NCBI RefSeq assembly: GCF_900172345.1
Contig: NZ_FWFY01000008.1
Location: 62,001 to 126,000, forward strand
DNA from: Limimaricola soesokkakensis
GTDB lineage: Bacteria > Pseudomonadota > Alphaproteobacteria > Rhodobacterales > Rhodobacteraceae
DNA: 64,000 nucleotides
Reading direction: 5' to 3'
Shown here piece by piece: positions 26,870 to 48,005 of the stretch. The notes beneath the pieces were generated by a model that searched no databases, was not told the DNA's origin, and saw only the letters and a list, made by a program, of their open reading frames with translations. The first letter of the stretch is position 1. Each line of letters starts with the position of its first letter. A program made the translations under genes and the position numbers.

Positions 26870-26879
26870 TGGTATACCA
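26870..26879. promoter_or_regulatory. TGGTATACCA operator, ltnD-otnKCI operon
   Basis: Perfect 10-bp palindrome 14 bp before the ltnD start codon; one of five identical copies in the window. So close to the start, binding would block initiation or early elongation. Confidence 0.65.
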
Positions 26880-26893
26880 AACGGGAGGCGCGC

Positions 26894-27787
26894 ATGGCGG
26901 TGATCACGGTGATCGGTCTGGGATCGATGGGGCTCGGCATGGCGCTGTCGCTCAGGCGCGCGGGGCACCGGGTGATCGGCTGCGACCTGCGCGAGGGCGC
27001 GGCGGCGCCGCTCCTGGCGGAGGGGGGCGAGGCGGGCACGCCGCGCGAGGCCGCGGCGCAAAGCGACATCGTGGTCAGCGTCGTGCTCAACGCGGCGCAG
27101 ACCGAGGCGGTGCTGTTCGGGCCCGAGGGCTGCGCCGAGCGGCTGCGTGCGGGTGCCGCGATCATCTCCTGCGCCACGGTGCCGCCCGAGGCGGCGCGGG
27201 CGATGGCCGCATCGGCCGAGGCGATGGGGCTGCATTACCTCGACGCGCCGATCTCGGGCGGTGCGGCCAAGGCGGCGCAGGGGCGGCTGTCGATCATGGC
27301 CTCGGGCAGCGAGGCCGCTTTCGCCGCCGCCGCGCCCGCGCTCGATGCGATGGCCGAGACGGTGCATGATCTGGGCCGCGACGCCGGGGCAGGCTCGGCG
27401 ATGAAGGCGGTGAACCAGCTTCTTGCGGGCGTGCATATCGCCGCGATGGGCGAGGCGCTGGCCATGGCGGCGAGCCAGGGGCTCGATCTGGGCCGGGTGG
27501 TCGAGGTGATCTCGGCCTCGGCCGGGACCTCGTGGATGTTCGAGAACCGGGCACCGCACGTGGTCGAGGCCGACTATGCGCCGCGCTCGGCGGTGACGAT
27601 CTGGCCCAAGGATCTTGGCATCGTCTCGGACATCGCGGCGGGGGCGGGGCTGCCGGTGCCGCTGACCCGCGCCGCGCTGGGGCAGTTCGAGGCCGCGGTC
27701 GAGGCGGGCTGGGGCGCCGATGACGACGCCGCCGTCACGCGGGTCTATGCGCGGGCCGCGGGTCTTTCTCTGCCGGGGGATGCGTGA
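26894..27787 (+). CDS. ltnD: L-threonate 2-dehydrogenase (3-HIBDH family)
   Basis: The 297-residue protein is a beta-hydroxyacid dehydrogenase: GLGSMGLGMALSL at 7-19 (NAD site), DAPISGGAAKA (substrate site) and the catalytic Lys in GSAMKAVNQL. Adjacent otnK, otnC and otnI identify it as LtnD of the acid-sugar pathway described for the DUF1537 kinases: L-threonate to 2-oxo-tetronate with NAD. The ATG at 26894 is used; an upstream in-frame ATG would run through the operator. The stop overlaps otnK. Confidence 0.85.
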   Translation: MAVITVIGLGSMGLGMALSLRRAGHRVIGCDLREGAAAPLLAEGGEAGTPREAAAQSDIVVSVVLNAAQTEAVLFGPEGCAERLRAGAAIISCATVPPEAARAMAASAEAMGLHYLDAPISGGAAKAAQGRLSIMASGSEAAFAAAAPALDAMAETVHDLGRDAGAGSAMKAVNQLLAGVHIAAMGEALAMAASQGLDLGRVVEVISASAGTSWMFENRAPHVVEADYAPRSAVTIWPKDLGIVSDIAAGAGLPVPLTRAALGQFEAAVEAGWGADDDAAVTRVYARAAGLSLPGDA

Positions 27788-29022
27788 TGCTGCTGGGCTG
27801 TATCGGCGACGATTTCACCGGCTCGAGCGATCTGGGCAACACGCTGACCAAGGCCGGGATGCGCAGCGTCCAGTATGTCGGCGTGCCCGACCGGCCCGCC
27901 GAGGCCGGGGTCGAGGCCGGGATCGTCGCGCTGAAATCGCGATCGCTCCCCGTGGCGGAAGCGGTACGCCAATCTCTGGCAGCGCTCGACTGGCTCATGG
28001 CGCAGGGCTGCGAGCAGATCCTGTTCAAATACTGCTCGACCTTCGATTCCACGCCCGAGGGCAATATCGGCCCGGTGGCCGAGGCCTTGGCGGACCGGCT
28101 CGGAGCCGAGCAGGTGATCTTCTGCCCCGCCTTTCCGGCGGCCGGGCGCACGGTCTATCAGGGCCATCTCTTCGTCGGCGACCGGCTCTTGAGCGAGAGC
28201 GGAATGGAGAACCACCCGCTGACGCCGATGACCGACCCGGATTTGCGGCGCTGGCTGGCGCGGCAGGTGCAGGGCGAGGTCGGCCATGTCGCGGCCGCGC
28301 AGGTTTTCGGGGGGCCGCAGGCGATCCGCGCCGCCTTCGCCGCCAGCGGGGCGCGGCACCTGATCTGCGACGCGATCCGCGACGAGGACCTGCTGGCGCT
28401 CGGGCGCGCCGCCCAGGGCCACCCTCTGGTCACCGGCGGATCGGGCATCGCGATGGGGCTGCCGGAGGCGTTCCGGAGCGCGGGTCGGCTGTCCGGCGCG
28501 GCGGGCGGCTGGCGCGGGCAGAAGGGCCGGGCGGTCGTGCTGTCGGGCTCGTGCTCGAACGCGACGCGCGGCCAGGTTGCCGCCCATGCCGGGCCGAGCC
28601 TGCCGGTGCGGATCGAGGCGCTGATGGCCGATGAGATCACGTCGCGCTGCGCCACCGAGTGGTCGCTGGCGCAGGAGGGGCTGCCGCTGGTCTACAGCTC
28701 GGCCGAGCCCGAGGCGGTGCGCGCCGCGCAGGAGCGGTTCGGCCGCGAGGCGGTGGCCGAGAAGGTCGAGGGCTTCTTCGCGGAGTCCGCGCGGGCGCTG
28801 GTGGCGCATGGGGTGACGCGGCTGATCACGGCGGGCGGCGAGACCTCGGGCGCGGTGGTCGAGGCGCTGGCGCCCGCCGCGCTCGAGATCGGGCCGGAGA
28901 TCGCGCCGGGCGTGCCCTGCCTGCGCGCCGGACCGGATCTGGTGCTGGCGCTGAAATCCGGCAATTTCGGCGGCCCGGACTTCTTTGCCGAGGCCGAGGC
29001 GATGCTGGGGCGCGACGCATGA
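27787..29022 (+). CDS. otnK: 3-oxo-tetronate kinase (DUF1537 family)
   Basis: The 411-residue protein has the two DUF1537 domains: N-terminal GCIGDDFTGSSDLGNTL and KYCSTFDSTPEGNIGPV, and C-terminal nucleotide-binding region with VLSGSCSNATRGQV, ITAGGETSGAVVEAL and ALKSGNFGGPDFF. It phosphorylates 3-oxo-tetronate at O4. A GTG three bases upstream (27784) is an equally placed start. Being between ltnD and otnC, the four-carbon acid sugar kinase assignment is firm. Confidence 0.9.
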   Translation: MLLGCIGDDFTGSSDLGNTLTKAGMRSVQYVGVPDRPAEAGVEAGIVALKSRSLPVAEAVRQSLAALDWLMAQGCEQILFKYCSTFDSTPEGNIGPVAEALADRLGAEQVIFCPAFPAAGRTVYQGHLFVGDRLLSESGMENHPLTPMTDPDLRRWLARQVQGEVGHVAAAQVFGGPQAIRAAFAASGARHLICDAIRDEDLLALGRAAQGHPLVTGGSGIAMGLPEAFRSAGRLSGAAGGWRGQKGRAVVLSGSCSNATRGQVAAHAGPSLPVRIEALMADEITSRCATEWSLAQEGLPLVYSSAEPEAVRAAQERFGREAVAEKVEGFFAESARALVAHGVTRLITAGGETSGAVVEALAPAALEIGPEIAPGVPCLRAGPDLVLALKSGNFGGPDFFAEAEAMLGRDA

Positions 29023-29663
29023 GCGAGGCGAAGCTGCGCGAGGCGATCTGCGCCCAGGCCGCGTCGCTCTTCGTGCGCGGGCTGACGGGCGGCGCCTCGG
29101 GCAACATCTCGGCGCGCTGCGAGGATGGCGGGCTCTTGGTCTCGCCCACGGGGGCGAGCTTCGGCAGCCTAGATCCGGGTCGGCTGGCGAAGTTCGACGC
29201 GAGCGGACGGCAGGTCTCGGGTGACAGGCCCACCAAGGAGATGCCGCTGCACGCCGCCTTCTACGAGACGCGTGGCACCGCCGGGGCGGTGGTGCATCTG
29301 CACTCGACCCATTCGGTGGCGCTGTCGATGTTGCCCGAGACCGACCCCGAAAACATGCTGCCGCCGCTCACCGCCTATTCGATCATGCGTTTGGGCAAGG
29401 TGCAGCTGCTGCCGTATTTCCGGCCCGGCGATCCGGCCATGGGCGACGCGGTGCGCGGGCTGGCGGGGCGGCGGAGCGCGGTGGTGCTGGCCAATCACGG
29501 CCCCGTCGTGGCGGCCAAGGATCTGGAGGCGGCGGTCTACGCGATGGAAGAGCTGGAGGAGACGGCGAAGCTGGCGCTGCTGCTGCGCGGCGCCAACCCG
29601 CGGATGCTGAGCGAGGCGCAGATCCGCGACGTGGTGACGACATTCGACGTGGAGTGGGACTGA
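29019..29663 (+). CDS. otnC: 3-oxo-tetronate 4-phosphate decarboxylase (class II aldolase fold)
   Basis: The 214-residue class II aldolase/adducin-fold protein has GGASGNISAR (phosphate loop), PTKEMPLHAAFY (catalytic Glu), HLHSTHSVAL (two metal-binding His) and ANHGPVVAAKDLEAAVYAMEELEE (third His). OtnC decarboxylates 3-oxo-tetronate 4-phosphate to dihydroxyacetone phosphate and CO2. 4-bp overlaps on either side show translational coupling with otnK and otnI. Confidence 0.88.
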   Translation: MSEAKLREAICAQAASLFVRGLTGGASGNISARCEDGGLLVSPTGASFGSLDPGRLAKFDASGRQVSGDRPTKEMPLHAAFYETRGTAGAVVHLHSTHSVALSMLPETDPENMLPPLTAYSIMRLGKVQLLPYFRPGDPAMGDAVRGLAGRRSAVVLANHGPVVAAKDLEAAVYAMEELEETAKLALLLRGANPRMLSEAQIRDVVTTFDVEWD

Positions 29664-30451
29664 TGTTTTCGGCCAATCTGGGATTTCTGTTCACCGACCG
29701 GCCGCTGCCCGAGGCGATCCGCGCCGCGAAGCGCCACGGTTTCGGCGCGGCGGAATGCCATTTCCCCTATGACACACCGGCGCGCGAGGTGCGGGCCGCG
29801 CTCGACGAGACCGGGCTGGAGATGCTCGGGATCAACACCGTGCCGGGCGACACGGCCTCCGGGGATTTCGGCCTCGCGGCCGTGCCGGGTCGCGAGCGCG
29901 AGGCGCAGGCGGCGATCGAGCAGGCGCTGGATTACGCCGCCGAGATCGGTGCGCGCAACGTGCATGTCATGGCCGGGCGGACCGAGGATCTCGAGGCCGC
30001 CGAGGCGCTGTTTCGCGGCACGTTGCGCGCGGCCTGCGATCTCGCCGCGCCGCGCGGCATCGGGCTGTTGATCGAGCCGATCAACCGGCGCGACGTGGCG
30101 GGCTATCATTTGAGCCACATCGAGCAGGCGGCGGCGACGGTGGCGGCGGTGGGCTCGGACGCGCTGAAGATCATGTTCGACTGCTATCATTTGCAGATCA
30201 TGCAGGGCGACCTGATCCGCCGCTTTGAGACGCATCGCGAGATGATCGGCCACGTGCAGATCGCGGGCGTGCCGGACCGGGGCGAGCCCGATGGCGGCGA
30301 GCTGCATTACCCGAACCTGGTCGCGGCGTTCCGCGAGAGGGGATGGGGCGCGCCCATCGGCGCGGAATACAAGCCGCGCTCGGGGCGGACCGAGGACGGG
30401 CTTGGATGGATGGATGCATTCCCGCAGGAGCGGGCAGGGGGGACGGCATGA
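29663..30451 (+). CDS. otnI: 2-oxo-tetronate isomerase (hydroxypyruvate isomerase family)
   Basis: The 262-residue TIM-barrel protein has the Hyi-family sites LLIEPINRRDVAGYHL (metal Glu), MFDCYHLQIMQGDL (metal Asp and His), GHVQIAGVPDRGEPDGGE (metal and catalytic) and GAEYKPRSG (C-terminal Glu). It interconverts 2-oxo- and 3-oxo-tetronate, linking LtnD or DenD to OtnK. Generic annotation would be hydroxypyruvate isomerase; the operon decides for OtnI. Confidence 0.87.
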   Translation: MFSANLGFLFTDRPLPEAIRAAKRHGFGAAECHFPYDTPAREVRAALDETGLEMLGINTVPGDTASGDFGLAAVPGREREAQAAIEQALDYAAEIGARNVHVMAGRTEDLEAAEALFRGTLRAACDLAAPRGIGLLIEPINRRDVAGYHLSHIEQAAATVAAVGSDALKIMFDCYHLQIMQGDLIRRFETHREMIGHVQIAGVPDRGEPDGGELHYPNLVAAFRERGWGAPIGAEYKPRSGRTEDGLGWMDAFPQERAGGTA

Positions 30452-31383
30452 GCGAGATATTGGCGATCGGCAGCTACACCGAGACCGACATGGAGGGGCT
30501 GCGCGAGATGGGCGCGCGCGTGGTCGAAAGCCTCGACGCGATGCGGGGGCTGCCGGAGGCCGAGCGCGCGGAAGTGCGCGCGGTGGCCTACAAGGGCCAC
30601 CATGATTTCGGTGCCGACGAGATGGCATTGCTGCCGGGTCTCGGCGTGATCGCCAATTACGGCGTGGGCTACGACGCGATCCGGATCGACGCGGCGGATG
30701 CCGCCGGGGTGCGGGTCACCAACACGCCGGACGTGCTCAACGACGACGTCGCCGACCTTGCCGTGGCGATGCTGCTGATGCAGCAGCGGCGGATGCTGGC
30801 GGGCGACGCGCATGTGCGCTCGGGCGCATGGGCCGGTGGCGAAAGCTTTCCGCTCAACCGCAAGGTCTCGGGCCGACGCGCGGGGATCATGGGGCTGGGC
30901 CGGATCGGGCGCGACATCGCCGATCGGCTGGCGGCGTTCAAGATGGAGATGCACTACCACGCGCGCTCGGAAAAGGAGACGCCGGGCTGGACCTATCACG
31001 CCGACCCTGTGTCGCTGGCGCGCGAGGTCGATTACCTCGTCGTGGCGCTGGTCGGCGGACCGGAGACCGAGAATTACGTCTCGAAAGAGGTGATCGAGGC
31101 GCTGGGGCCCGAGGGCGTGCTGATCAACATCTCGCGCGGCTCGACGGTGGACGAGGCGGCGCTTCTCGATGCGCTGGAGGCGGGGCGGCTCGGCGGCGCC
31201 GGGCTCGACGTGTTCCGCGACGAACCCCGGGTCGATCCGCGGTTCCATGCATTGGAAAGGGTCGTGCTGCAACCGCATCAGGGCTCGGGCACGCACGAGA
31301 CCCGCGCCGCGATGGGGCGGTTGCAGCGCGACAACATCTCGGCCTTTCTCGATGGTCGCGACCTGCTCACCCCGGTGAACTGA
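30448..31383 (+). CDS. D-isomer-specific 2-hydroxyacid dehydrogenase
   Basis: The 311-residue protein has the family features: MGLGRIGRDIADRL (NAD(P) site), HARSEKETPGW (an Arg after the second strand, favouring NADP), NISRGSTVDEAAL (catalytic Arg), DEP and HQGSGTHETR (catalytic His). It resembles hydroxypyruvate/glyoxylate reductases. It is fused to the otn operon by a 4-bp overlap yet is not a known step of the tetronate route, so it may reduce a side product such as hydroxypyruvate or feed in another hydroxy acid. Confidence 0.83.
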   Translation: MSEILAIGSYTETDMEGLREMGARVVESLDAMRGLPEAERAEVRAVAYKGHHDFGADEMALLPGLGVIANYGVGYDAIRIDAADAAGVRVTNTPDVLNDDVADLAVAMLLMQQRRMLAGDAHVRSGAWAGGESFPLNRKVSGRRAGIMGLGRIGRDIADRLAAFKMEMHYHARSEKETPGWTYHADPVSLAREVDYLVVALVGGPETENYVSKEVIEALGPEGVLINISRGSTVDEAALLDALEAGRLGGAGLDVFRDEPRVDPRFHALERVVLQPHQGSGTHETRAAMGRLQRDNISAFLDGRDLLTPVN

Positions 31384-32078: not shown

Positions 32079-32085
32079 GCAAGGC

Positions 32086-32118: not shown

Positions 32119-32964
32119 TCAGTCGGCGGCGACGGCTTCTTGCCGCTGGCGGCCGAGCCCCTCGACCTCGATCTCCATCACGTCGCCGGGCTTGAGGAAG
32201 CGCTGCGGCTTCATGCCCATGCCAACGCCCGAGGGCGTGCCGGTGGCGATGACGTCGCCGGGCATCAGCTTCATGAACTGCGACATGTGGCTGATGATCT
32301 GGGCGACGGTGAAGATCATGTCGCCGGTGGTTTCGTCCTGCACCCGCTCGCCGTTGAGGTCGAGCGTGACGCGCAGGGCCTGCGGATCCTCGATCTCGTC
32401 CGCCGTCACCAGCCAGGGGCCGACGGGGCCGAAGGAGGGGGCCGACTTGCCCTTGATCCACTGGCCGCCGCGCTCGATCTGGAAGGCGCGCTCGGAGACG
32501 TCGTTGATAGTGCAGTAGCCCGCCACGTGATCGAGCGCATCGGCCTCGGAGACGTAGAGCGTCTCGCGGCCGATCACCACGCCCAGCTCGACCTCCCAGT
32601 CGGTCTTCTCCGAGCCGCGCGGGATGATCACCGGGTCGAAGGGGCCCGACAGCGCCGAGGAGGCCTTGGAGAAGATGATCGGCTCCTTGGGCGGCTGCGT
32701 ACCGGTTTCGGCCGCGTGCTTGGCGTAGTTCAGGCCGATGCAGAAGAAGTTGGGCACGCGCGAGAGGCACGACCCGATCCGCTCCGGCTCCTCGACCAGC
32801 GGTAGGCTTTCGGGATCGATGCCCCGGAGCCGGTCGAGCGCGTCGCGCGACACCGCGTCGCCGGCAAGGTCGTCGACATGCCCCGAGAGATCGCGCACCC
32901 GGCCTTCGCGGTCGAGCATCCCGGTCCTTTCCTGCCCCGCCGGGCCGTATCGCAGCAGTTTCAT
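32119..32964 (-). CDS. FAH-family hydrolase (2,4-dioxo acid type)
   Basis: The 281-residue protein has the fumarylacetoacetase/2-hydroxyhepta-dienoate isomerase fold: FFCIGLNYAKHAAETG, KASSALSGPFDPVIIP, DWEVELGVVIGRE (two metal Glu), GYCTINDVSER (metal Asp), GKSAPSFGPVGPWLV and TGTPSGVGMGMKP. Members with this pattern include 2,4-diketo-3-deoxy-L-fuconate hydrolase. With the dehydratase at 37371 and the SDR at 38875 this gives a plausible three-step oxidative route for a deoxy- or hexonic acid sugar ending in pyruvate plus a hydroxy acid. It overlaps the GntR gene by 4 bp and is cotranscribed with it. Confidence 0.8.
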   Translation of the reverse strand: MKLLRYGPAGQERTGMLDREGRVRDLSGHVDDLAGDAVSRDALDRLRGIDPESLPLVEEPERIGSCLSRVPNFFCIGLNYAKHAAETGTQPPKEPIIFSKASSALSGPFDPVIIPRGSEKTDWEVELGVVIGRETLYVSEADALDHVAGYCTINDVSERAFQIERGGQWIKGKSAPSFGPVGPWLVTADEIEDPQALRVTLDLNGERVQDETTGDMIFTVAQIISHMSQFMKLMPGDVIATGTPSGVGMGMKPQRFLKPGDVMEIEVEGLGRQRQEAVAAD

Positions 32965-33665
32965 TCGATGTCCTTCTCGTTGGTGGTCAGGTCGCGCCCG
33001 GATTCGCGCAGTTCGAACAGGCGGGTGAGATTGACGATCAGCGCCGAGAGATGCGCGTCGATCTCGGTGCCGACCCGGGCCGGATCGCGGGTCTCGAGCC
33101 CGCGCACGATGTTCTCGTGCTGCGTGCGCACCCGCTCGCGGGCACGGCGTTGTACCGCGGAAAGATAGCGTTGGCGCCACATCCGCGCGAGATAGGCGGC
33201 ATGGGTCTCGGCCAGCGCCGGGTTGTGCGAGGCCCGCGCGATGGCGGTGTGGAACGCCATGTCGATCTCGAACAGCTCGATCAGCGCGTCGCCCTCGGCG
33301 GTCTCGCTCAGGGCGAGGTGCCGCTCGGACAGGTCGCGGATCTCGGCGATCTCGGCGTCCGAGGCCTCGCGGCAGGCCAGCTCGCCCGACAGGATCTCGA
33401 GCGCCTTGAGCACCATCACCGCGTCGCGCACCTCCTTGAGGGAGGGGTCCGCGACGATCGGGCTGCGCGCCGGGCGCAGCTGCACCAGCCCCTCCTTGGC
33501 GAGGATGCGCACCGCCTCGCGAAGCGGCGTGCGGCTGACGCCGAGATCGACCGCGTTGTCGCGCTCCTTGATCGGATCGCCGGGCGCGAGCTTGCCCCGA
33601 AGGATGTCGCGGCGCAGCTTCTGCGCGATCTGCTCTGCCAGTGGTGATGCGGTCATCTTGTCCAT
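32961..33665 (-). CDS. GntR/FCD regulator, probable owner of the TGGTATACCA sites
   Basis: The 234-residue protein has the GntR winged helix (AEQIAQKLRRDILRGKL...NAVDLGVSRTPLREAVRILAKEGLVQ) and an FCD effector domain with FHTAIARASHN and H-rich helices typical of metal- and carboxylate-binding regulators. The ATG at 33665 is used; a reading extended to 33902 crosses both operators. Two TGGTATACCA palindromes lie just upstream (33694 and 33752), between it and the divergent TRAP operon. By this arrangement it is autoregulated and controls the other three loci with the same site. Effector is probably an acid-sugar or pathway intermediate. Confidence 0.85.
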   Translation of the reverse strand: MDKMTASPLAEQIAQKLRRDILRGKLAPGDPIKERDNAVDLGVSRTPLREAVRILAKEGLVQLRPARSPIVADPSLKEVRDAVMVLKALEILSGELACREASDAEIAEIRDLSERHLALSETAEGDALIELFEIDMAFHTAIARASHNPALAETHAAYLARMWRQRYLSAVQRRARERVRTQHENIVRGLETRDPARVGTEIDAHLSALIVNLTRLFELRESGRDLTTNEKDIE

Positions 33666-33693
33666 TGCTTGGTCGGTTCGAGGCGTTTGAATC

Positions 33694-33703
33694 TGGTATA
33701 CCA
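33694..33703. promoter_or_regulatory. TGGTATACCA operator, GntR side
   Basis: Perfect palindrome 28 bp upstream of the GntR start codon, 58 bp from the next copy. Confidence 0.65.
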
Positions 33704-33751
33704 AAAAATTCTTGTCTGTCGAGCAGCCCCTCGCTAGCGTGACCCTGCGGC

Positions 33752-33761
33752 TGGTATACCA
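33752..33761. promoter_or_regulatory. TGGTATACCA operator, dctP side
   Basis: Perfect palindrome 58 bp upstream of dctP. The 58-bp centre-to-centre distance to the first copy is about five to six helical turns, compatible with cooperative binding or looping. Confidence 0.65.
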
Positions 33762-33819
33762 TCCTGGGGAGGAAGGGAGGCCGCGGAACTGGCGGAAAAA
33801 CCGCCGAGGGAGGAAAGTG

Positions 33820-34833
33820 ATGAAGACCAGTATCGTATGTCTCTCCACCGCGCTCATGGCTGCCACGGCCCTGCCGGCGCTGGCGCAGGAAACTCTGCGC
33901 ATCCAGACGCATTACGCGCCCGAAACGGAATCCGGCAAGCTGGCCCAGCAATTCGCCGACGACGTCGAGGTGATGTCGGGTGGTGAGATCGACGTGGAGA
34001 TGTTCTTCTCCTCCTCGGTGGTGAAGACCGTGGAGGCCTTCGACGCCGCCGCCAACGGCATCCTCGACTGCGACATGACCGGCGGCGCCTACCAGACCGG
34101 CAAGAACCCCGCCTTCCAGTTCGTTGGCGACATCATGGGCGGCTACGACACGCCCTGGCAGCAATATGCCTGGCTCTACAATGGCGGCTTCGAGACCGCG
34201 GACGAGCTCTATAACGGCTTCAACATGAAGCTCGTCGGCTGGTGGATCTACGGCCAGGAATCCATGTCCTCGACCAAGCCGCTGGCCGGGCCCGAGGATC
34301 TCAAGGATTGGAAGTTCCGCTCGCCGCCGGGGATGGAAACCGAGATCTTCGCCAATCTCGGCGCGTCGCCCGTGGTCATGGACTTCACCGAGATCTTCAC
34401 GGCGTTGGAAACCGGGATCATCGACGGTGCCGACGCCTCCGGTCTGGCCAACAATGTCGGGCTCGGCCTGTACGATCTGGTCGAGCACGCGACCTATCCG
34501 GGCTTCCATTCGATGCCCTCGGACCACCTCGCCTGCCGCCTCGACAAGTGGGAGAGCCTGTCGGACGCGCATAAGCGGATCATCGACACCGCGATGCAGA
34601 AGCTGGCCTTCCAGACCGCGCTGACCTTCGAGGTCGCCAACAACGAGGCGGCGGCCGAGCTGCGCGAGAAGGGCGTGACGCTGCATGACTGGTCCGACGA
34701 GGACCGCAAGGTGTTCCGCGAGGCGGCGCAGGCGGCCTGGGCCGACTGGGCCACCAAGACCCCCGAGACCAAGGCGCTGGTCGACAGCCACATCGCCTTC
34801 ATGCAGCAGCTCGGTCTGATCGCCTCCGAGTGA
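33820..34833 (+). CDS. TRAP transporter substrate-binding protein (acid sugar)
   Basis: The 337-residue DctP-family protein has a signal peptide (cleavage near ALA|QET) and a TRAP fold with SPPGMETEIFANLGASPVVMDFTEIFTALETGIIDGADAS. The KFRSPPGME arginine is the expected carboxylate ligand. It is the first gene of dctP-dctQ-dctM-dehydratase-SDR-EamA, so the ligand is probably the substrate of the dehydratase. The binding protein at 42251-43264 is the same length and closely similar throughout. A hairpin follows the stop. Confidence 0.83.
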   Translation: MKTSIVCLSTALMAATALPALAQETLRIQTHYAPETESGKLAQQFADDVEVMSGGEIDVEMFFSSSVVKTVEAFDAAANGILDCDMTGGAYQTGKNPAFQFVGDIMGGYDTPWQQYAWLYNGGFETADELYNGFNMKLVGWWIYGQESMSSTKPLAGPEDLKDWKFRSPPGMETEIFANLGASPVVMDFTEIFTALETGIIDGADASGLANNVGLGLYDLVEHATYPGFHSMPSDHLACRLDKWESLSDAHKRIIDTAMQKLAFQTALTFEVANNEAAAELREKGVTLHDWSDEDRKVFREAAQAAWADWATKTPETKALVDSHIAFMQQLGLIASE

Positions 34834-37317: not shown

Positions 37318-37324
37318 GCCAACC

Positions 37325-37347
37325 GGGCGGGCCATCATGGCCCGCCC
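37325..37347 (+). promoter_or_regulatory. Hairpin between dctM and the dehydratase gene
   Basis: GGGCGGGCC pairs with GGCCCGCCC around ATCAT in the 53-bp gap after dctM. Possible partial terminator or processing site that sets transporter and enzyme expression apart. Confidence 0.5.
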
Positions 37348-37370
37348 CTCCCATTCGAGAGACCTCGCCC

Positions 37371-40466: not shown

Positions 40467-41218
40467 GCGCCGCTACCCCAGGCGCGGATGCGGTCGGCGA
40501 CGCGCGCGTCGGGCGCGCCGCCCTCCTCGCGCTCGCGCCAGCGGTCGAGCAGCGGTTGGCCCGAGTTGCGGCAATGCACCCGCATGGCGCGGCGCGCGGC
40601 CTCGGCGTCGGCGTCGGCGAATGCGTCGAGGATCGCGAGGTGCTCGGCCTCGTAGAAGCGCGCCACGTCGGCCGCGTCGCGGCGGTTGTTGGCGCGGGTC
40701 CATTCGGGGAAACGCCGGCGGGCGCGCCAGAACTCCTCGACGATGCCGACGAAGACCGAGTTGCCGGTGGCCCGCGCGATGGTGACGTGGAAGTCGCGGT
40801 CGAGCCGCTCGACCTCCGAAAGCGCCAGCGCGGGGTCGGCCATGCCGGCGACCAGCCCCCGCAGATGCGCGAGATCCGCCGTTCCCATGAAGGGCGCGGC
40901 GGCGGCGGCGATCTCGGGCTCGATCCGGTAGCGCGCCTCGACCAGCTCGTAGAAGCCGGGTTGGGCCGGCGGCTCGGACGGGGCCTCGGGCAACGTCTCG
41001 GCGACGAAGGCCCCGGCGCCGAAACGGGTGACGACGTAGCCCATCAACTCCAGCGCGATCATCGCCTCGCGCACCGTGGTGCGGCTGACGCCCAAGCGCT
41101 CGACCAGATCCTTGTCGGCGGGCATCTTGGCGCCGGGGGCGAGATCGCCCGCGCGGATCGCGGCGGCGATCTCATCGGCCACGAGCCGGTAGCGCGGGGT
41201 CTGGATGATGGGCTTCAC
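40463..41218 (-). CDS. GntR/FCD regulator of the denD operon
   Basis: The 251-residue protein has the GntR winged helix (VADEIAAAIRAGDLAPGAKMPADKDLVERLGVSRTTVREAMIALELMGYV) and an FCD domain with DFHVTIARATGN and a metal-type His pattern. It is the last gene of dctP-denD-gntR (18-bp gap) and would control that operon through the ATTGCCAGACAAT element at 43317. It differs from the GntR at 32961, so at least two acid-sugar regulators work in the island. Confidence 0.82.
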   Translation of the reverse strand: MKPIIQTPRYRLVADEIAAAIRAGDLAPGAKMPADKDLVERLGVSRTTVREAMIALELMGYVVTRFGAGAFVAETLPEAPSEPPAQPGFYELVEARYRIEPEIAAAAAPFMGTADLAHLRGLVAGMADPALALSEVERLDRDFHVTIARATGNSVFVGIVEEFWRARRRFPEWTRANNRRDAADVARFYEAEHLAILDAFADADAEAARRAMRVHCRNSGQPLLDRWREREEGGAPDARVADRIRAWGSGA

Positions 41219-41235: not shown

Positions 41236-42198
41236 TCAGGTGGGCCGGTCGTCCTCGAGATAGTAGCGCACGTTCTCCTCGAAGCTCGCATCGGCCTCGA
41301 GCCCGAGCGCCAGCGCCTTGGCAGGATCGTAGTCGAAACGCCAGCCCGACACGATGTCACGGATCGCCGGGTCGTCCTCGAAGCGAATGAGCTTCGCAGG
41401 CTCGGGCCCCGCCACCGCCGTCATCGCCTCGATCATCTGGCGGATGGTGAGGGTGCGGCCGGGCATCGTCATGGTACGGCTCTGGCCCAGATCGGCGGCC
41501 TCGATCTCGGCGCCACGAATGAGGTTCTCCACGCAGAGCCGCGGGCTCAGGTAGTAATGCGGGAACTCCGGATCGACCGGGCAAACCGCTTCCTCGCCGT
41601 TCAGTGGCTCGCGGATGATCGAGGACATGAAGGAGGACGCGGCACGGTTCGGGCGGCCCGGGCGCACCGAGATCGTCGGCAGGCGCAGCGTCCGGCCATC
41701 GACGAAGCCCCGGCGCGAGTAGTCGTTGACCAGAAGCTCGCCGATCGCTTTCTGGGTGCCATAGGAAGTCTGCGGGTTGGGGATGGTCCAGTCGCGGATC
41801 GGGTCGGGCACCTCGCCGCCGAACACCGCGAGCGAGGAGGTGAAGACCAACACCGGGGCGCGGCCCTGCAGGCGCAGGCTCTCCAGCACGTTCAGCACGC
41901 CGTGCAGGTTGACGTTCATGCCGTCCTCGAACTCGGCCTCGGCGTGGCTGGACACCACGGCGGCGAGCAGGAACACCGCGTCGAAGCCCGGTGCGAGCAG
42001 CGCGTCCATCGCCGCGCGGTCGGTGATGTCGCAGGCAGTGCAGGCGATGTCGAAGGGCGCGTCGAGCGGGGCAGGGGCGGCGATGTCGGCCAGCGTCAGC
42101 CCGGCGATCTGGCGGCCACGCAGCTCCCCGCGCGCGATGAGGCGGCGGGCCAGCTTCTGGCCCAGAAAGCCGCCGCCGCCGATGATCAGGATGTTCAT
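41236..42198 (-). CDS. denD: D-erythronate dehydrogenase (extended SDR)
   Basis: The 320-residue NAD-dependent epimerase/dehydratase-fold protein has GGGGFLGQKLARRL (7-20), a Tyr-Lys pair in SYGTQKAIGE and PNRAASSFMSSIIREPLNGEEAVCPV, the pattern of DenD. DenD oxidises D-erythronate at C2 to 2-oxo-tetronate, which then enters OtnI, OtnK and OtnC encoded 12 kb away. It is cotranscribed with an orphan TRAP binding protein. Confidence 0.85.
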   Translation of the reverse strand: MNILIIGGGGFLGQKLARRLIARGELRGRQIAGLTLADIAAPAPLDAPFDIACTACDITDRAAMDALLAPGFDAVFLLAAVVSSHAEAEFEDGMNVNLHGVLNVLESLRLQGRAPVLVFTSSLAVFGGEVPDPIRDWTIPNPQTSYGTQKAIGELLVNDYSRRGFVDGRTLRLPTISVRPGRPNRAASSFMSSIIREPLNGEEAVCPVDPEFPHYYLSPRLCVENLIRGAEIEAADLGQSRTMTMPGRTLTIRQMIEAMTAVAGPEPAKLIRFEDDPAIRDIVSGWRFDYDPAKALALGLEADASFEENVRYYLEDDRPT

Positions 42199-42250: not shown

Positions 42251-43264
42251 TCAGTCGCGCAGGCCGATCCGCTCGAGGAACTCGAGGTGGCTGTCAACGA
42301 TGGCGCGGGCCTCCGGCGTCTTGGCGGCCCAGACTTCCCAGGTGTCGGTCGCCGCCTTGCGGAAGGTGGCGCGATCCTCGGCCGACCAGTCATGCAGCGT
42401 CACGCCCTTTGCGGGCAGCGCGTCGAGCGCCTCGCCATTGTCGACGATGACCTGCGTCATCAGCCCCAGCGCGAGGCTGTCCATCGAGACCTTGAGGATC
42501 TCGCGATGCGCCTCGGGCATCGCCTCCCATGTCGCGGTCGAGCAGGCGAGGTGGTCCGAGGACATCGAGTGGAAGCCCGGATAGGTGGTGTGGGTGGCAA
42601 TGTCGTAAATGCCCAAGCCCACATTGTTGGCCAGCGTCGAGGCGTCGGCGCCGTCGATGATCCCGGTCTCCAGCGCAGTGAAGATCTCGGTGAAATCCAT
42701 CACCACCGGCTTGGCGCCGAGGGCCGCGAAGATCTCCGACTCCATCCCCGGCGGCGAGCGGAACTTGAAGTTCTGCAGGTCAGAGATGCCGCTCAGCGGC
42801 TTGGTCGAATTCAGCGATTCCTGTCCGCCGAGCCAGGCGCCGACGAACTCCATGCCGTTGGCGTTGTAGAGTTCGTTGATCTGCTCGCGACCGCCGCCAT
42901 GCTGGATCCATGCCAGGAACTGCAGCGGCGTGTCGTAGCCGCCCATCACGTCGGCCACGAATTGGAAGGCCGGGTTCTTGCCGGTCTGGTAGGAGCCGTT
43001 GGTCATGTCGCAGTCGAGGATGCCGTTGGCGGCGGCGTCGAAGGTCTCGGCGGATTTGACCACCGCCGAGGAGTAGAACATCTCGATCGAGATGTCCCCG
43101 CCGGACATCTTCTCGACCTTCTCGACCCATTGCGCGGCCTGCTGGCCGGCCGGCGATTCAGGCGATTGCTGGGTCTGGATGCGCAGCGTGGTGGTCTGCG
43201 CAGCCGCGGTTCCCGCGAGCAGGGCCGCGGTGCCGATGGCGGCGAGCGACGAGACGATCTTCAT
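42251..43264 (-). CDS. Orphan TRAP substrate-binding protein
   Basis: The 337-residue DctP-family protein has a signal peptide (cleavage near AAA|QTT) and is near-colinear with the binding protein at 33820: shared blocks include FDAAANGILDCDMT, YQTGKNPAFQFV, GYDTP, KFRSPPGME and VVMDFTEIFTALETGIIDG. No DctQ or DctM gene accompanies it, so it probably feeds the permease pair at 34919-37317. With denD next, D-erythronate is the likely ligand. The ATG at 43264 follows AGGGAGGGA. Confidence 0.83.
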   Translation of the reverse strand: MKIVSSLAAIGTAALLAGTAAAQTTTLRIQTQQSPESPAGQQAAQWVEKVEKMSGGDISIEMFYSSAVVKSAETFDAAANGILDCDMTNGSYQTGKNPAFQFVADVMGGYDTPLQFLAWIQHGGGREQINELYNANGMEFVGAWLGGQESLNSTKPLSGISDLQNFKFRSPPGMESEIFAALGAKPVVMDFTEIFTALETGIIDGADASTLANNVGLGIYDIATHTTYPGFHSMSSDHLACSTATWEAMPEAHREILKVSMDSLALGLMTQVIVDNGEALDALPAKGVTLHDWSAEDRATFRKAATDTWEVWAAKTPEARAIVDSHLEFLERIGLRD

Positions 43265-43316
43265 GGTTCCCTCCCTGTGAAATCCTCCACCGGGAGCCTG
43301 CCGCAGGGTCATTTAG

Positions 43317-43354: not shown

Positions 43355-44491
43355 TCAGAGCAGCCCGCGCCCGGCGAGGTTGCGCATCAACGCGCCGGTG
43401 CCGAAGCACCATTCCGGGCATTCGGTCGAGAGCCGCACCGTGTTGCGCAGCGCGCCGAGGCGGTCCTCCACGATCACCACCACGTCGCCGGTCTTGTGGG
43501 TGAAGCCCTGTCCCGGCGCGTCACGGTCCTGGATCGGCGCGAAGAGCGTGCCGAGAAACAGCAGGAAGCCGTCGGGATACTGGTGGTGCCGGCCGATGGT
43601 CTGGGCGACGAGGCTTTCGGGGTCGCGGCTGATCTTCGACATCGAGGAGCGACCCTCCAGCCTGAAGCCGTCCTCGCCCGTGACGTCGAGCCGCAGCTCG
43701 GCGGCGCGCATGTCGTCCATGGTGTAGTGTTCGTCGAAGACCCGGATGAAGGGGCCGATGGCGCAGGAAGCGTTGTTGTCCTTGGCCTTGCCCAGAAGCA
43801 GCGCCGAGCGGCCCTCGACATCGCGCAGGTTCACGTCGTTGCCGAGCGTCGCGCCGCGGATCCGGCCCCGGCTGTCGACGGCGAGCACGATCTCGGGCTC
43901 GGGGTTGTTCCAGTTCGAGATCGGGTGCAGCCCGACGCTGGCGCCCCAGCCGACGGCGGCCATCGGCTGGCACTTGGTGAAGACCTCGGCGTCGGGGCCG
44001 ATGCCGACCTCCAGATATTGCGACCAGAGCCCTTCGGCCTGCAGCACCGCCTTGACCTGCGCGGCATTGTCGGAGCCGGGCACGATGCCCGAGAGGCTGT
44101 CGCCGATCACGCCCTGCACCCGGGCGCGGATCTCCTGCGCCCGGTCGGCGTCGCCCGCCGCCTGCTCCTCGATCACCCGCTCGACCATGCTCTCGGCGAA
44201 GGTGACGCCCGAGGCCTTGATCGCCTGCAGATCGGCGGGGGCGAGGAAATGCGGCATGCCGGGGGTTTCGGTCGAAGCGGCGAAGAGATCCTCGACGGCG
44301 CCGATATCCTCGCCCGGCACGCCGCGCAGGTAATCGGCGAGATCGTCGCGCTCCATCAGGTCGCGCATCGTCGGGGTCTCGCGCGAGGTGATGTCGATCA
44401 CCCGGCCCTCGCGCAGGGTGACGAGGGCGGGGCCAAAGTCGCGCTGGACACGACCGGCGAGCAGGGCGCGGGAATGGTCTTGGGGAAGCAT
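43355..44491 (-). CDS. FAH-superfamily dehydratase-like protein (AraD1 type)
   Basis: The 378-residue protein has the large form of the fumarylacetoacetase fold: SQYLEVGIGPDAEVFTKC, SVGLHPISNWNNPEPEIVL (metal Glu residues), GNDVNLRDVEGRSALLLGKAKDNNASC (metal Asp and Lys) and LSTECPEWCFGTGALMRNL. This pattern fits 2-keto-3-deoxy-pentonate dehydratases, which make 2-oxoglutarate semialdehyde. With the pentonate dehydratase-like gene at 48077 it suggests a pentonate route, but no semialdehyde dehydrogenase gene is in the window. It follows the FAD oxidase gene by 4 bp. Confidence 0.77.
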   Translation of the reverse strand: MLPQDHSRALLAGRVQRDFGPALVTLREGRVIDITSRETPTMRDLMERDDLADYLRGVPGEDIGAVEDLFAASTETPGMPHFLAPADLQAIKASGVTFAESMVERVIEEQAAGDADRAQEIRARVQGVIGDSLSGIVPGSDNAAQVKAVLQAEGLWSQYLEVGIGPDAEVFTKCQPMAAVGWGASVGLHPISNWNNPEPEIVLAVDSRGRIRGATLGNDVNLRDVEGRSALLLGKAKDNNASCAIGPFIRVFDEHYTMDDMRAAELRLDVTGEDGFRLEGRSSMSKISRDPESLVAQTIGRHHQYPDGFLLFLGTLFAPIQDRDAPGQGFTHKTGDVVVIVEDRLGALRNTVRLSTECPEWCFGTGALMRNLAGRGLL

Positions 44492-44495
44492 CGGT

Positions 44496-45893
44496 TCAGC
44501 CTTCGTCGTCGGCGGGCAGCATCTTGCCCGGGTTGAGGATGCCCTTGGGATCGAGGGCGGTTTTCAGCGACCGCATCACCGCGACGGCGTCGCCGTGCTC
44601 CTCGGCCATATGGGCGATCTTGCCCAGGCCCACGCCATGCTCGCCGGTGACGGTGCCGCCGAGCCGCAGCGCGGTCTCGGCCAGCGCGGCGGTGAAGCGG
44701 TGAACGCGGGCGACCTCGTCGGCATCAGTGGGATCGACCCGCAGGCCGCAATGGAAATTGCCGTCGCCGACATGGCCGACGATGGTCGAGGTGAGGCGCA
44801 GTTCGCGGGCGAGGTCCTGGGCGTGGGTCACCGCCTCGGCCAGCCGCGAGATCGGCACGCAGACATCGGTGGCCAGCGTCCGCTTGCCGGGATCGAGCGC
44901 GCCGGTCGCGTAATGCGCCTGGTGCCGCATGTGCCACAGCTCGCGGCACTCCTCGGTCCGGTCGGTCCAGCGGATCGCCGAGGCGCCGTATTCGCCCGCA
45001 AGTTCGCCGAAGGCCTGCGCCTGTTCGCCGACGCCGGCGGGGGTGCCGTGGAATTCCACGAAGAGATGCGGTGCCTCGGGCAGGTCGCTGCCCTGATAGG
45101 CGTTGAAGCCGCGCACCATCATCTCGTCCAGAAGCTCGATCCGCGCCACGGCGAGGCCGGACTGGATCGTGGCGATGACGCAGTCGACCGCGTCGGCGAC
45201 GCCGGCGAAGCGGCAGGTCGCGGCCGAGACCGCCTCGGGCTGGCCATGCAGCCGAACCGTCATCTCGGTGATGATGCCGAGCGTGCCCTCCGAGCCGATC
45301 ATCAGACGGGTCAGGTCGTAGCCCGCGCTCGACTTGCGGGCGCGGCTGCCGGTACGGATGATCCGCCCATCGGCCAGCACCACCTCGAGCGCCAGCACGT
45401 TGTCGCGCATCGTGCCGTAGCGCACCGCCGTGGTCCCCGAGGCCCGCGTCGCGGCCATGCCGCCAAGCGAGGCGTCGGCACCCGGATCGACCGGGAACAT
45501 CAGCCCGGTGGCGCGCAGCTCCTCGTTGAGGCGCGAACGGGTGACGCCGGGCTGCACCACCGCGTCCAGGTCCTCCGGATGCACGGCGAGGATGCGGTCC
45601 ATGCGCGCGAGGCTCAGCGCGATGCCGCCTTGCACCGCGAGGTGATGCCCTTCGAGCGCGCTGCCCGCGCCCTGCGCCGTGACCGGGCAGCCATGAGCAT
45701 GGCATTCGCGCAGGATCGCCGCGACCTCCTCGGTGGTTTCGGGGAATGCCACCGCGTCGGGCGGCGCGGGCGGGTAATGCGCCTCGTTCGCGCCGTGCTG
45801 GTCGCGCAGCGCCTCCGAGGTGGAGAGCCGGTCGCCCAGGAGCGGCGCGAGCGCGGCGATGGCCGCCGGGGCGGCGGGATGAATGGTCTGCAT
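44496..45893 (-). CDS. FAD-binding 2-hydroxyacid oxidase/dehydrogenase (GlcD/DLD type)
   Basis: The 465-residue protein has a PCMH FAD domain (AQGAGSALEGHHLAVQGGIALSL, GGMAATRASGTTAVRYG, GSEGTLGIITEMTVRLHG) and the FAD-oxidase C domain with VGHVGDGNFHCGLRV and TGEHGVGLGK, typical of D-lactate and glycolate/D-2-hydroxyacid dehydrogenases. No signal peptide; cytoplasmic, perhaps membrane-associated. The ATG at 45893 was chosen over a longer reading that crosses the operator. It heads the operon with the FAH-fold gene and may oxidise D-lactate or a sugar-acid-derived hydroxy acid. Confidence 0.83.
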   Translation of the reverse strand: MQTIHPAAPAAIAALAPLLGDRLSTSEALRDQHGANEAHYPPAPPDAVAFPETTEEVAAILRECHAHGCPVTAQGAGSALEGHHLAVQGGIALSLARMDRILAVHPEDLDAVVQPGVTRSRLNEELRATGLMFPVDPGADASLGGMAATRASGTTAVRYGTMRDNVLALEVVLADGRIIRTGSRARKSSAGYDLTRLMIGSEGTLGIITEMTVRLHGQPEAVSAATCRFAGVADAVDCVIATIQSGLAVARIELLDEMMVRGFNAYQGSDLPEAPHLFVEFHGTPAGVGEQAQAFGELAGEYGASAIRWTDRTEECRELWHMRHQAHYATGALDPGKRTLATDVCVPISRLAEAVTHAQDLARELRLTSTIVGHVGDGNFHCGLRVDPTDADEVARVHRFTAALAETALRLGGTVTGEHGVGLGKIAHMAEEHGDAVAVMRSLKTALDPKGILNPGKMLPADDEG

Positions 45894-45943: not shown

Positions 45944-45953
45944 TGGTATACCA
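45944..45953. promoter_or_regulatory. TGGTATACCA operator, FAD oxidase / NAD dehydrogenase
   Basis: Perfect palindrome in a 104-bp divergent gap, 50 bp from the FAD oxidase start and 44 bp from the dehydrogenase at 45998. One site can serve both directions. Confidence 0.65.
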
Positions 45954-45997: not shown

Positions 45998-46921
45998 ATG
46001 ACGGACAAGTCGAAGATCGGCTTCATCGGGCTCGGCTACATGGGGCGCGGCATGGCCGCGAACCTCCTGCGTGCCGGTCATCAGATGATGGTCAAGGGCA
46101 ACCGCGACCGCGCCCCGGTCGAGGCGCTGGTGGCCCAAGGCGCGGTCGAGGCGCAGAGCCCGCGCGAGATGGCCGAAAGCTGCGACATCATCCACCTGTG
46201 CCTGTCGAACTCGGACCAGGTCGAGGCGGTGATCCGTGGCGAGGACGGGATCCTGGCGGGCGCGCGCGAGGGGTTGATCGTGATCGACACCACCACCGCC
46301 GACCCGGTCTCGACCGCAGCGCTGGCCGAGGAGATGGCGGCGGCCGGGGTCAGTCTGGTCGACGCGCCGCTCGGCCGCACCCCCAAGGAGGCCGAGGCGG
46401 GCACGCTCGACGCGATGGTCGGCTGCGACGCCGAGACCTTTGCCAAGGTGCGACCGGTGATCGAGGTCTGGGCCGGCAACATCAACCATGTCGGGGAAAC
46501 GGGCGCCGGGCACCGGATGAAGCTGGTGATGAACTTCATCTCCATGGGCTATGCCGCGCTCTATGCCGAGGCGCTGGTCATGGGGGTGAAATCAGGGCTA
46601 AGCCCGCAGGCGATCCAATCGGTGATCGGCGGCTCGCGGTTGTCGAACGGCTTCTTCGAGACCTTTATGCGGGCGGCGGTGGATCGCGAGCGCGACGTGC
46701 ACCAGTTCTCGATCACCAACGCCGCCAAGGACACGCGCTATGCCGCCTCGATGGCGATGGCGGCGGGGATGGCCAACCCGATGGGATCGGCGATCCGCGA
46801 CGCCTTCGCGCAGATGGAGGCGGCGGGGAAAGGCGGCGACTACGTGCCTTGGCTGGCCGATCACGTGGCCGCGCTGAACGGGCTCGATCTCGAAGGCGCG
46901 GTGGCTCAGAGCAAGGCCTGA
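45998..46921 (+). CDS. 3-hydroxyisobutyrate-dehydrogenase-family oxidoreductase
   Basis: The 307-residue beta-hydroxyacid dehydrogenase has GFIGLGYMGRGMA (NAD site), LVDAPLGRTPKEAEAGTL (substrate loop) and the catalytic Lys in GAGHRMKLVMNF. It is a distant paralogue of LtnD (26894) and its substrate loop differs (RTPKEAEAG rather than GGAAKAAQG), so a different hydroxy acid such as 3-hydroxyisobutyrate, glycerate or a tetronate is possible. It stands alone and converges on azlD with a 16-bp overlap. Confidence 0.8.
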   Translation: MTDKSKIGFIGLGYMGRGMAANLLRAGHQMMVKGNRDRAPVEALVAQGAVEAQSPREMAESCDIIHLCLSNSDQVEAVIRGEDGILAGAREGLIVIDTTTADPVSTAALAEEMAAAGVSLVDAPLGRTPKEAEAGTLDAMVGCDAETFAKVRPVIEVWAGNINHVGETGAGHRMKLVMNFISMGYAALYAEALVMGVKSGLSPQAIQSVIGGSRLSNGFFETFMRAAVDRERDVHQFSITNAAKDTRYAASMAMAAGMANPMGSAIRDAFAQMEAAGKGGDYVPWLADHVAALNGLDLEGAVAQSKA

Positions 46922-47226
46922 GCCGCGTAGAGCGTGGCGAGCCCGGCGGTGATCGCGCCGACCGGGCCGAAGCGTAGGCCCACGGCGACCGCGAGGAGCG
47001 CCGCGATGACCCGGGGGGCTTCGGTTTCGCCGCCCGTGGCGGCAGGCCAGAGCACGGCAGGCACGATCAGCGCCGGGAACACCGCGACGCCTACGTATTT
47101 GAGATGCAAGAGAAGCCAGTCGGGCAGCTGGCGCCCACCCAAGAGGCCGAGAAAGGAGAACCGGATCAGGAAGGTGCCGAGGCCGAGCGCCAGCGTCAGG
47201 CTCCAGAACTCACCCGCGCCGATCAT
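46906..47226 (-). CDS. azlD: AzlD-family membrane protein
   Basis: The 106-residue protein has three to four hydrophobic helices and the AzlD pattern TFLIRFSFLGLLGGRQLPDWLLLHLKYVGVAVFPALIVP. It forms a two-subunit branched-chain amino acid (azaleucine) exporter with AzlC. Its start overlaps azlC by 4 bp and its end overlaps the convergent dehydrogenase. Confidence 0.8.
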   Translation of the reverse strand: MIGAGEFWSLTLALGLGTFLIRFSFLGLLGGRQLPDWLLLHLKYVGVAVFPALIVPAVLWPAATGGETEAPRVIAALLAVAVGLRFGPVGAITAGLATLYAAQALL

Positions 47227-47948
47227 GCCGTGCACTCCGCGCGCCGCGCTGCGCGGCGGCGCAGGAACAGCTCCGCCTGCGCGCCCGCAATCATCGCGGC
47301 GATGGCGGCGATCGGCAGGCCCAGATTCCACGGCAGCCAGGCGAAGCCAATGGTGACGACCGAGGAAACCAGCGCCGCGAGCAGGTGCGGCAGGCTGCGC
47401 AGCAGGGGCGCGAGCAGCGCGATGAAGCAGACCGGCACCGCGAAATCGAGCGAGAGCGAGGCCGGGATCGCCTGTCCCATCAGGGCGCCCGCCAGCGTGC
47501 AGCCATACCAGATCGGGCAGACCACGGCCATGCAGCCGAAATAGTAACGCAGCTTCTGCGACAGGGTCATGTCGGGGCTGTCCTCGTAGCGGCGCACCGC
47601 CACGGCAAAGCTCTGATCCACCATGAGATAGGCCGCGAGCGCCCGCGCGCCCTTGGAGGCCGCGCCCAGATGCGGCACCAATGCCGCCGAATACATCGCC
47701 ATGCGCAGGTTCACCGCCAGCGCCGCCAGCAGCGCCACGAAGACCGGCGCGCCGTCCTGCAGCAAGGCCAGCGCCGTGAACTGGGAGGCGCCGGCGATGA
47801 CGATCACCGACATCGACATCACCTGCAGGAGGTCGAGGCCCGCGTCGCGGGCGACGACGCCGAACAGGGTCGAGAACGGGATCACGATCAACACGAAGGG
47901 CAGGCAGTCGCGAAAGCCAGCGCGAAAGGGATGGCGAGGCGGCGGCAT
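47223..47948 (-). CDS. azlC: AzlC-family membrane exporter
   Basis: The 241-residue protein has five to six hydrophobic segments and AzlC signatures PFVLIVIPFSTLFGVVARDAGL, VIVIAGASQFTALALL and LRMAMYSAALVPHLG. AzlCD exports branched-chain amino acids in known cases. It is divergent from the pentonate dehydratase across the fifth TGGTATACCA site, which would place an exporter of unknown true ligand under acid-sugar control. Confidence 0.82.
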   Translation of the reverse strand: MPPPRHPFRAGFRDCLPFVLIVIPFSTLFGVVARDAGLDLLQVMSMSVIVIAGASQFTALALLQDGAPVFVALLAALAVNLRMAMYSAALVPHLGAASKGARALAAYLMVDQSFAVAVRRYEDSPDMTLSQKLRYYFGCMAVVCPIWYGCTLAGALMGQAIPASLSLDFAVPVCFIALLAPLLRSLPHLLAALVSSVVTIGFAWLPWNLGLPIAAIAAMIAGAQAELFLRRRAARRAECTA

Positions 47949-47995
47949 GGGTGGCTCCGGTAATGATGCGACAGGGCCGGATTGGCTCTTGCATC

Positions 47996-48005
47996 TGGTA
48001 TACCA
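47996..48005. promoter_or_regulatory. TGGTATACCA operator, azlC / dehydratase
   Basis: Perfect palindrome in the 128-bp divergent gap, 47 bp from azlC and 71 bp from the dehydratase start. Confidence 0.65.

Follow-up and report, generated by a model that had tools for sequence, protein, structure and literature searches.

A ten-letter palindrome as the probable operator of a GntR/FCD regulator of sugar-acid genes in Limimaricola soesokkakensis

Results

The palindrome and the genes that it precedes

A 64,000-nucleotide stretch of the Limimaricola soesokkakensis genome (contig NZ_FWFY01000008.1, positions 62,001 to 126,000; hereafter the window) holds an island of putative sugar-acid uptake and breakdown genes, among which the ten-letter palindrome TGGTATACCA recurs. 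An earlier reading of the sequence (the original prediction) proposed that this palindrome marks a multi-operon regulon and that the GntR-family protein encoded at 32961-33665, here GntR1, is its probable regulator. The evidence below indicates that TGGTATACCA is very probably the operator of GntR1, which would most likely repress seven transcription units with about 22 genes.

Exact copies begin at 26870, 33694, 33752, 45944 and 47996, as predicted, and all five are intergenic; as palindromes, the predicted operators O1 to O5 are assigned no strand. O1 (26870..26879) lies 14 base pairs (bp) 5' of the ltnD ATG at 26894. O2 (33694..33703) and O3 (33752..33761) share the gap between the divergent genes gntR1 and dctP1, O2 as the left, gntR1-proximal copy and O3 as the right copy, at about +1 of a candidate dctP1 promoter. 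O4 (45944..45953) occupies the fadox/hib2 divergon and O5 (47996..48005) the azlC/edd divergon. O2 and O3 had been described as flanking the GntR gene, whereas both stand on its 5' side, within the divergent gap 33666-33819.

Operon limits, inferred from strand and spacing, give units of 5 + 2 + 5 + 5 + 1 + 2 + 2 = 22 genes. Downstream of O1 on the forward strand are ltnD (L-threonate dehydrogenase, 26894..27787; NCBIfam NF043037, 402.5 bits, cut-off 350), otnK (3-oxo-tetronate kinase, 27784..29022; NF043035, 544.7 bits, cut-off 350), otnC (3-oxo-tetronate 4-phosphate decarboxylase, 29019..29663; NF043034, 302.6 bits, cut-off 250), otnI (29654..30451), a probable 2-oxo-tetronate isomerase by operon position and by its best model (NF043033, 258.8 bits, below the cut-off of 325), and hadh (30448..31383) of the D-2-hydroxyacid dehydrogenase family (Pfam 2-Hacid_dh_C; no NCBIfam cut-off reached). 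On the reverse strand, gntR1 (32961..33665; Pfam GntR and FCD), proposed from phylogenetic footprinting to encode the repressor, precedes fah1 (32119..32964), whose product resembles 2,4-diketo-3-deoxy-acid hydrolases; its best solved relative is 8gsr, an L-2,4-diketo-3-deoxyrhamnonate hydrolase (E 2.8e-84), and its NF053535 score of 390.5 bits is below the cut-off of 500.

The divergent forward operon begins with dctP1 (33820..34833; Pfam DctP, NF037995 above cut-off), for the substrate-binding protein of a tripartite ATP-independent periplasmic (TRAP) transporter, and continues with the TRAP permease gene dctQM (34957..37317, start uncertain; Pfam DctM), a single 786-residue frame that is matched end to end in loci L066-L068 and by two overlapping frames in L131. 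Next come a uxaA/garD-family acid-sugar dehydratase gene (37320..38864, start uncertain; Pfam GD_AH_C, GD_AH_second and SAF; TIGR03248, 380.5 bits, below 730.85), whose product has the galactarate dehydratase 6u7l as nearest solved structure, the short-chain dehydrogenase gene sdr1 (38875..39591) and an EamA-family transporter gene (39591..40466).

To the left of O4, on the reverse strand, run fadox (44496..45893), for a GlcD-like FAD-linked oxidase (Pfam FAD-oxidase_C and FAD_binding_4; TIGR00387, 348.5 bits, below 567.9), fah2 (43355..44491), dctP2 (42251..43312), for a second TRAP substrate-binding protein, denD (D-erythronate dehydrogenase, 41236..42198; NF043036, 405.3 bits, cut-off 325) and, as last gene, gntR2 (40463..41218), for a second FCD-GntR protein resembling ExuR, UxuR, PdhR and LldR. 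The fah2 product, of the FAH superfamily, is similar to 2-keto-3-deoxypentonate dehydratases; its solved relatives are 9kkt (FAH family, E 2.6e-126) and 2q18 (2-keto-3-deoxy-D-arabinonate dehydratase, E 1.6e-19), and it has no NCBIfam match. The original prediction had ended this operon at the FAH gene; with DctP2, DenD and GntR2 included, its count of about 17 genes rises to about 22. In the Limimaricola operon, gntR2 (40463-41218) and dctP2 (42251-43312) are interleaved with denD, and they look like insertions because the Loktanella loci L070 and L071 have fah2-denD without them.

To the right of O4 lies hib2 (45998..46921, forward), for a member of the 3-hydroxyisobutyrate/tartronate-semialdehyde reductase family (no NCBIfam cut-off reached). 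O5 separates the reverse-strand genes azlC (47223..47948; Pfam AzlC) and azlD (46906..47226; Pfam AzlD) from the forward genes edd (48077..49855), for an IlvD/EDD-family acid-sugar dehydratase (NF009560, 1009.9 bits, cut-off 684), and sdr2, for a short-chain dehydrogenase (49852..50601). The nearest solved relative of the edd product is 5oyn, the Caulobacter xylonate dehydratase. Membership of azlCD in the regulon is weak and the least certain of the set. In Limimaricola sp. G21655-S1, the closest named locus, GntR1 is 99% identical and the gene order is the same over the 20.7 kilobases (kb) read.

Pathways suggested by the gene set

LtnD, DenD, OtnK and OtnC exceed the equivalog cut-offs of the L-threonate/D-erythronate pathway, with OtnI below its own, and since denD belongs to the O4-headed operon fadox-fah2-dctP2-denD-gntR2, both entry enzymes of the tetronate pathway fall within the set. 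The remaining enzymes recall the non-phosphorylative pentose Routes II and III of Herbaspirillum huttiense, described as ending in alpha-ketoglutarate or in pyruvate plus glycolate (PMC6336799). All Route II/III protein types are present in the set, matched by type alone and with fah1 below its equivalog cut-off: the UxaA/GarD-family and IlvD/EDD dehydratases of that description have counterparts here, as do the FAH-family 2-keto-3-deoxypentonate dehydratase, the short-chain dehydrogenase and the FAH hydrolase. Unlike the H. huttiense routes as presented there, the Limimaricola genes would be under the same operator as a TRAP transporter and the genes for tetronate use. The gene functions appear to fit L-threonate/D-erythronate breakdown together with pentonate Routes II/III, and the predicted combination of a tetronate route with other acid-sugar routes is backed by curated family models and solved relatives. 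The GlcD-like oxidase and the two reductase-type dehydrogenases could process glycolate or its products. The substrates would extend beyond L-threonate and D-erythronate.

Distribution of the palindrome within the genome

In 100 dinucleotide shuffles of the window, matches to TGGTATACCA with up to one mismatch averaged 0.10, and none of the 100 reached five; the window itself holds no one-mismatch copies beside the five exact ones. Scanning the whole genome (G000; 3,936,691 bases, 99.99% complete), which the original prediction had proposed as a check, returned the same five exact copies and zero for the reversed control pattern, such that the palindrome is confined to promoter regions of the acid-sugar island, as predicted, and the scattering across unrelated DNA that had been named as a counter-sign was not seen. 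With up to one mismatch allowed, 26 places match, the five exact ones included, compared with 32 for the reversed control, and we therefore rejected one-mismatch sites as further regulon members and treat them as background. Scanning the window for tRNAs and for Rfam families at the gathering threshold gave no matches.

Co-occurrence of the palindrome with GntR1 across the family

The 149 genomes of the family were grouped by the quality of their GntR1 match. The best-matching 18, among them the own genome (E at most 1.6e-59; identity 50-100%), carry a mean of 5.17 exact sites, with a minimum of 2 and at least three sites in 17 of them. The mean is 2.17 in 12 intermediate genomes and 0.85 in the 119 genomes that have only distant GntR1 homologues, 56 of which have zero. 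The exact-site difference is significant (Mann-Whitney p 1.5e-11, 17 versus 119 genomes), while the reversed control averages 1.44 in the best-GntR1 group and 1.84 in the distant group. This control word, ACCATATGGT, occurs 23 times in genome G018 and 0-7 times in each of the other 148 genomes; in G018 it is perhaps the operator of another regulator, or a repeat.

Exact sites also lie next to the gene for the proposed regulator. Of the 17 best genomes apart from the own, 15 have a site in the 1.5 kb beside the GntR1 homologue gene, and in a 16th, G086, it stands before edd, which precedes the GntR1 gene on the same strand; G086 and G023 both have sites before edd and the GntR1 gene after it on that strand. 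In 25 loci from other genera (476 kb), picked on GntR1 similarity alone, TGGTATACCA occurs 45 times across 21 loci, whereas 29 other palindromes of the same letters total 2 occurrences; the 25 loci are not all independent, because several share a genus (Paracoccus, Mameliella). A site falls within 300 bp upstream of dctP1 in 14 of 14 cases, of edd in 6 of 8 and of hib2 in 1 of 1, and the genes that are operon-internal in the window are preceded by a site in 0 of 85 cases. Five Paracoccus loci (L074, L075, L077, L078, L094) have edd-sdr2-hadh followed by GntR1, all in one direction, with two sites before edd; a sixth, L085, has the same genes and zero exact sites.

Among the site-bearing loci listed, the distance from the O1-type site to ltnD is about equal in L066 and L071, and a site is also found upstream of ltnD in L105, L107, L114 and L124. 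A site of the O4 type separates hib2-type from fah2/fadox-type operons in L070, L071, L107, L114, L116 and L124, some of which have an additional short-chain dehydrogenase gene before hib2.

Promoter architecture

Between O2 and O3, at 33712..33740 on the forward strand, TTG-N20-TAGCGT is a candidate sigma-70 promoter for the dctP1 operon. Paired operators in the gntR1/dctP1 gap are mostly 55-58 bp apart, and the arrangement is kept in other genera. Of 29 paired sites listed, which take in the window and three further Limimaricola and include some congeners, 23 enclose, or cage, a promoter of the form TTG-N20-TA...T (TTG-N21 in L089). Its first base follows the left operator by 7-8 bp, and 9-12 bp separate its end from the right operator. 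Spacing as nearly constant as this is in keeping with the class of co-operative double sites described in PMC4494728. Of the 21 listed loci that bear sites, 12 have the heptamer TTGCATT directly before the edd site. Sites placed over or just after promoters argue for repression, which, from sequence placement, is the likely mode of action.

Domains and predicted specificity of GntR1

GntR1 exceeds the cut-offs of Pfam PF00392, at 61.7 bits, and of PF07729, at 69.4 bits, which gives it the GntR plus FCD architecture of the FadR subfamily. Operators of this subfamily are reported to follow a TKGT/ACMA consensus with 2 or 3 nucleotides between GT and AC, the 2-nucleotide spacing being that of UxuR, HypR and MdcY, and Arg28 of the helix-turn-helix has been linked with the G of TKGT (PMC4494728). 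The five promoter-region copies of TGGT-AT-ACCA match a palindromic TKGT/ACMA with 2-nucleotide spacing, consistent with binding by GntR1. With helix-turn-helix numbering carried over from E. coli FadR residues, the TKGT-reading position is Arg in GntR1 and in 28 of 29 other homologues listed, and Lys in one. D135, H139, H183 and H205 of the FCD domain are constant in 49 sequences; one Asp with three His is the pattern of metal- and carboxylate-binding FCD domains. GntR1 scores 28 bits against the UxuR model (cut-off 442) and 37.7 bits against the ExuR model (cut-off 396), reaching neither. The E. coli UxuR consensus presumably has the same ten letters. For the GntR1 paralogues L162 and L163 of the own genome, no TKGTNNACMA site is present in the stretches of 6-7 kb covered.

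Evidence against GntR1 as reader, and rival explanations

Several observations weigh against GntR1 as the reader of these sites. Four of the 25 protein-selected loci (L085, L090, L091, L092) have no exact site, and the Loktanella loci L070/L071 have none near the GntR1 gene itself. In genome G088, with a 53% homologue, no site lies close to the GntR1 gene or to the edd matches, and among the next 12 homologues (43-51% identity) a site adjoins the gene in only 2. In the protein-selected loci, a site within 300 bp precedes GntR1 in only 13 of 25 cases, fah2 in 2 of 5, azlC in 1 of 2 and ltnD in 1 of 6, the last of which makes the tetronate operon a less consistent member across genera; in several relatives about 500 bp separate the site from the azlC match. 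By the definition used, the caged promoter is absent from 6 of the 29 paired sites, namely four Paracoccus pairs before edd, a pair in G110 with a spacing of 23 bp, and Limibaculum L073, whose similar box falls outside the accepted pattern. The recognition Arg does not single out GntR1, because site-less homologues have it too. At least three sites occur in 9 of the 119 genomes without a close GntR1, and G136 (L164), G063 and G106, likewise without one, hold 7, 5 and 4 exact copies, which implies that other GntR proteins or lineages may use the same word. One of the G136 copies adjoins the gene of a distant GntR (28% identity). Genome G107, of the same genus, has no close GntR1, no close edd and no site; because it lacks the island and not the regulator alone, it is consistent with the proposal yet provides no clean natural knockout.

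The chance of the palindrome being an accident or a local repeat devoid of regulatory role is, in our judgment, vanishingly small: genomes without a close GntR1 do hold about one exact copy each, but the clustering of five copies within 21 kb and zero elsewhere, the ratio of 45 to 2 over control palindromes in loci picked regardless of motif, and the constancy of the ten letters between genera while flanking bases vary all oppose it. It is improbable, too, that GntR2 (41218-40463), itself encoded within the regulated set and nearer to ExuR/UxuR, binds the five sites, alone or with GntR1. Of the NCBIfam models, it matches ExuR and UxuR best, though it reaches neither cut-off; UxuR is placed in the same 2-nucleotide spacing class (PMC4494728), and the gntR2 gene ends the operon headed by O4; the distribution of its homologues nonetheless disfavors it as the binder. 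Among the matches listed, only G039 of the 17 best GntR1 genomes, in other genera, has a GntR2 homologue of at least 44% identity, G018 combines a 56% homologue with zero exact sites, and L070/L071 keep the O4-type site with no GntR2 in the 20.7 kb stretch read from their genomes. Aligned by eye, GntR2 also has Lys, not Arg, at the TKGT-reading position. A candidate word for GntR2 is TTGTCNGACAA, found upstream of edd in G018 (L141) and of the GntR2 homologue in G035 (L041); it has 2-13 copies in 5 of 6 genomes, mostly elsewhere, and both copies in the own genome are on other contigs. GntR0 (20995-20276, beside malonate genes) was rejected as binder, as it has Thr at the TKGT-reading position, aligned by eye, and TTGTATACGA near its own start, both of which suit a different word.

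GntR1 thus remains the favored reader, in agreement with the original prediction, on its co-occurrence with sites in 149 genomes, the sites beside its gene and their placement at operon heads. Activators exist in the FadR subfamily (E. coli GlcC, as described in PMC11323563), and O2 lies upstream of the -35 box, but in 23 of 29 paired sites the O3-type copy begins 9-12 bp past the -10 box, where it overlies the likely start point, O1 is only 14 bp from a start codon, and the FadR-subfamily protein GlcR of Paracoccus is a repressor (PMC11323563). An activating or dual role for GntR1, in place of simple repression, is accordingly unlikely.

A third FCD-GntR protein

GntR0 (20276-20995), the third FCD-GntR protein of the window, is encoded near genes for malonyl-CoA decarboxylase and an AMP-binding, MatB-like protein. 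TTGTATACGA at 20966 lies just upstream of its likely start (20929) and has T where the GntR1 sites have G; it is a possible operator of GntR0 itself.

Discussion

In the mechanism we propose, GntR1 dimers would occupy one operator at the transcription start of each unit or close to it; between gntR1 and dctP1 they would occupy two, one on either side of the -35/-10 promoter that serves the TRAP-dehydratase operon. The dimers may be released when the FCD metal site binds a carboxylate of the acid-sugar type or a keto-acid further down the pathway.

The kind of switch is a familiar one: from its sequence features, the regulon is assigned to the FadR-subfamily operator class with 2-nucleotide spacing (UxuR/HypR). 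As in the UxuR/HypR/MdcY class presented in PMC4494728, GntR and FCD domains go with a TKGT-NN-ACMA palindrome, carboxylic-acid substrates and a regulator gene in a divergon with paired sites; unlike that class, GntR1 falls below the UxuR model and its target genes differ. GlcR of Paracoccus denitrificans is likewise a FadR-subfamily protein that represses a hydroxy-acid pathway in Rhodobacterales and is released by glycolate, whereas GlcR groups with GlcC/PdhR/LldR and controls glcDEF, as set out in PMC11323563. VdtR of Brucella also acts, negatively, on the D-erythronate/L-threonate pathway; unlike GntR1, it belongs to the DeoR family, and the passages of PMC10580937 covered do not join pentonate dehydratase genes to it. 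Among the literature matches listed, titles and abstract openings gave no description of the motif or regulon (subscription journals and RegPrecise lay outside the scope), and no text that holds the ten letters was, by title, about a bacterial regulator.

Sites outside the core promoters, for which 20 candidate genes were scanned, hint at extensions in relatives. They precede genes for class I/II aminotransferases in L119, L111, L109 and L135 (with hadh following in L109 and L135), MR/MLE enolase-superfamily proteins in L128 and L144, aldehyde dehydrogenases in L121 and L146, and a zinc alcohol dehydrogenase in L110. Other non-core sites adjoin genes with no evident link, among them those for a major facilitator superfamily protein, gyrase B and ferredoxin-domain proteins, and these are probably due to chance. 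The aminotransferase sites would form an amino-acid link, like AzlCD.

Possibly, although we lean slightly against it, one FCD repressor serves as a general sugar-acid switch of Rhodobacterales, in which a single shared metabolite induces uptake, the C4 kinase route and the C5/C6 Routes II/III and, in some relatives, enolase-superfamily dehydratases, aldehyde dehydrogenases, an AzlCD exporter and a pair made up of an aminotransferase and a hydroxyacid dehydrogenase too. The shared metabolite would then be a 2-keto-3-deoxy-acid or glycolate. If this holds, one ten-base word would predict a whole acid-sugar catabolome across genera. If the proposed regulon is true, a well-conserved operator word would lead, for a large bacterial family, to the regulator, the promoter architecture and the enzymes and transporters for sugar acids that are regulated together. 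It would also give a testable context to genes whose substrates are unclear, namely those for the UxaA/GarD and IlvD/EDD dehydratases, for the TRAP proteins, for AzlCD and, in relatives, for the class I aminotransferase; threonate, erythronate and pentonates would then offer direct tests through growth and expression.

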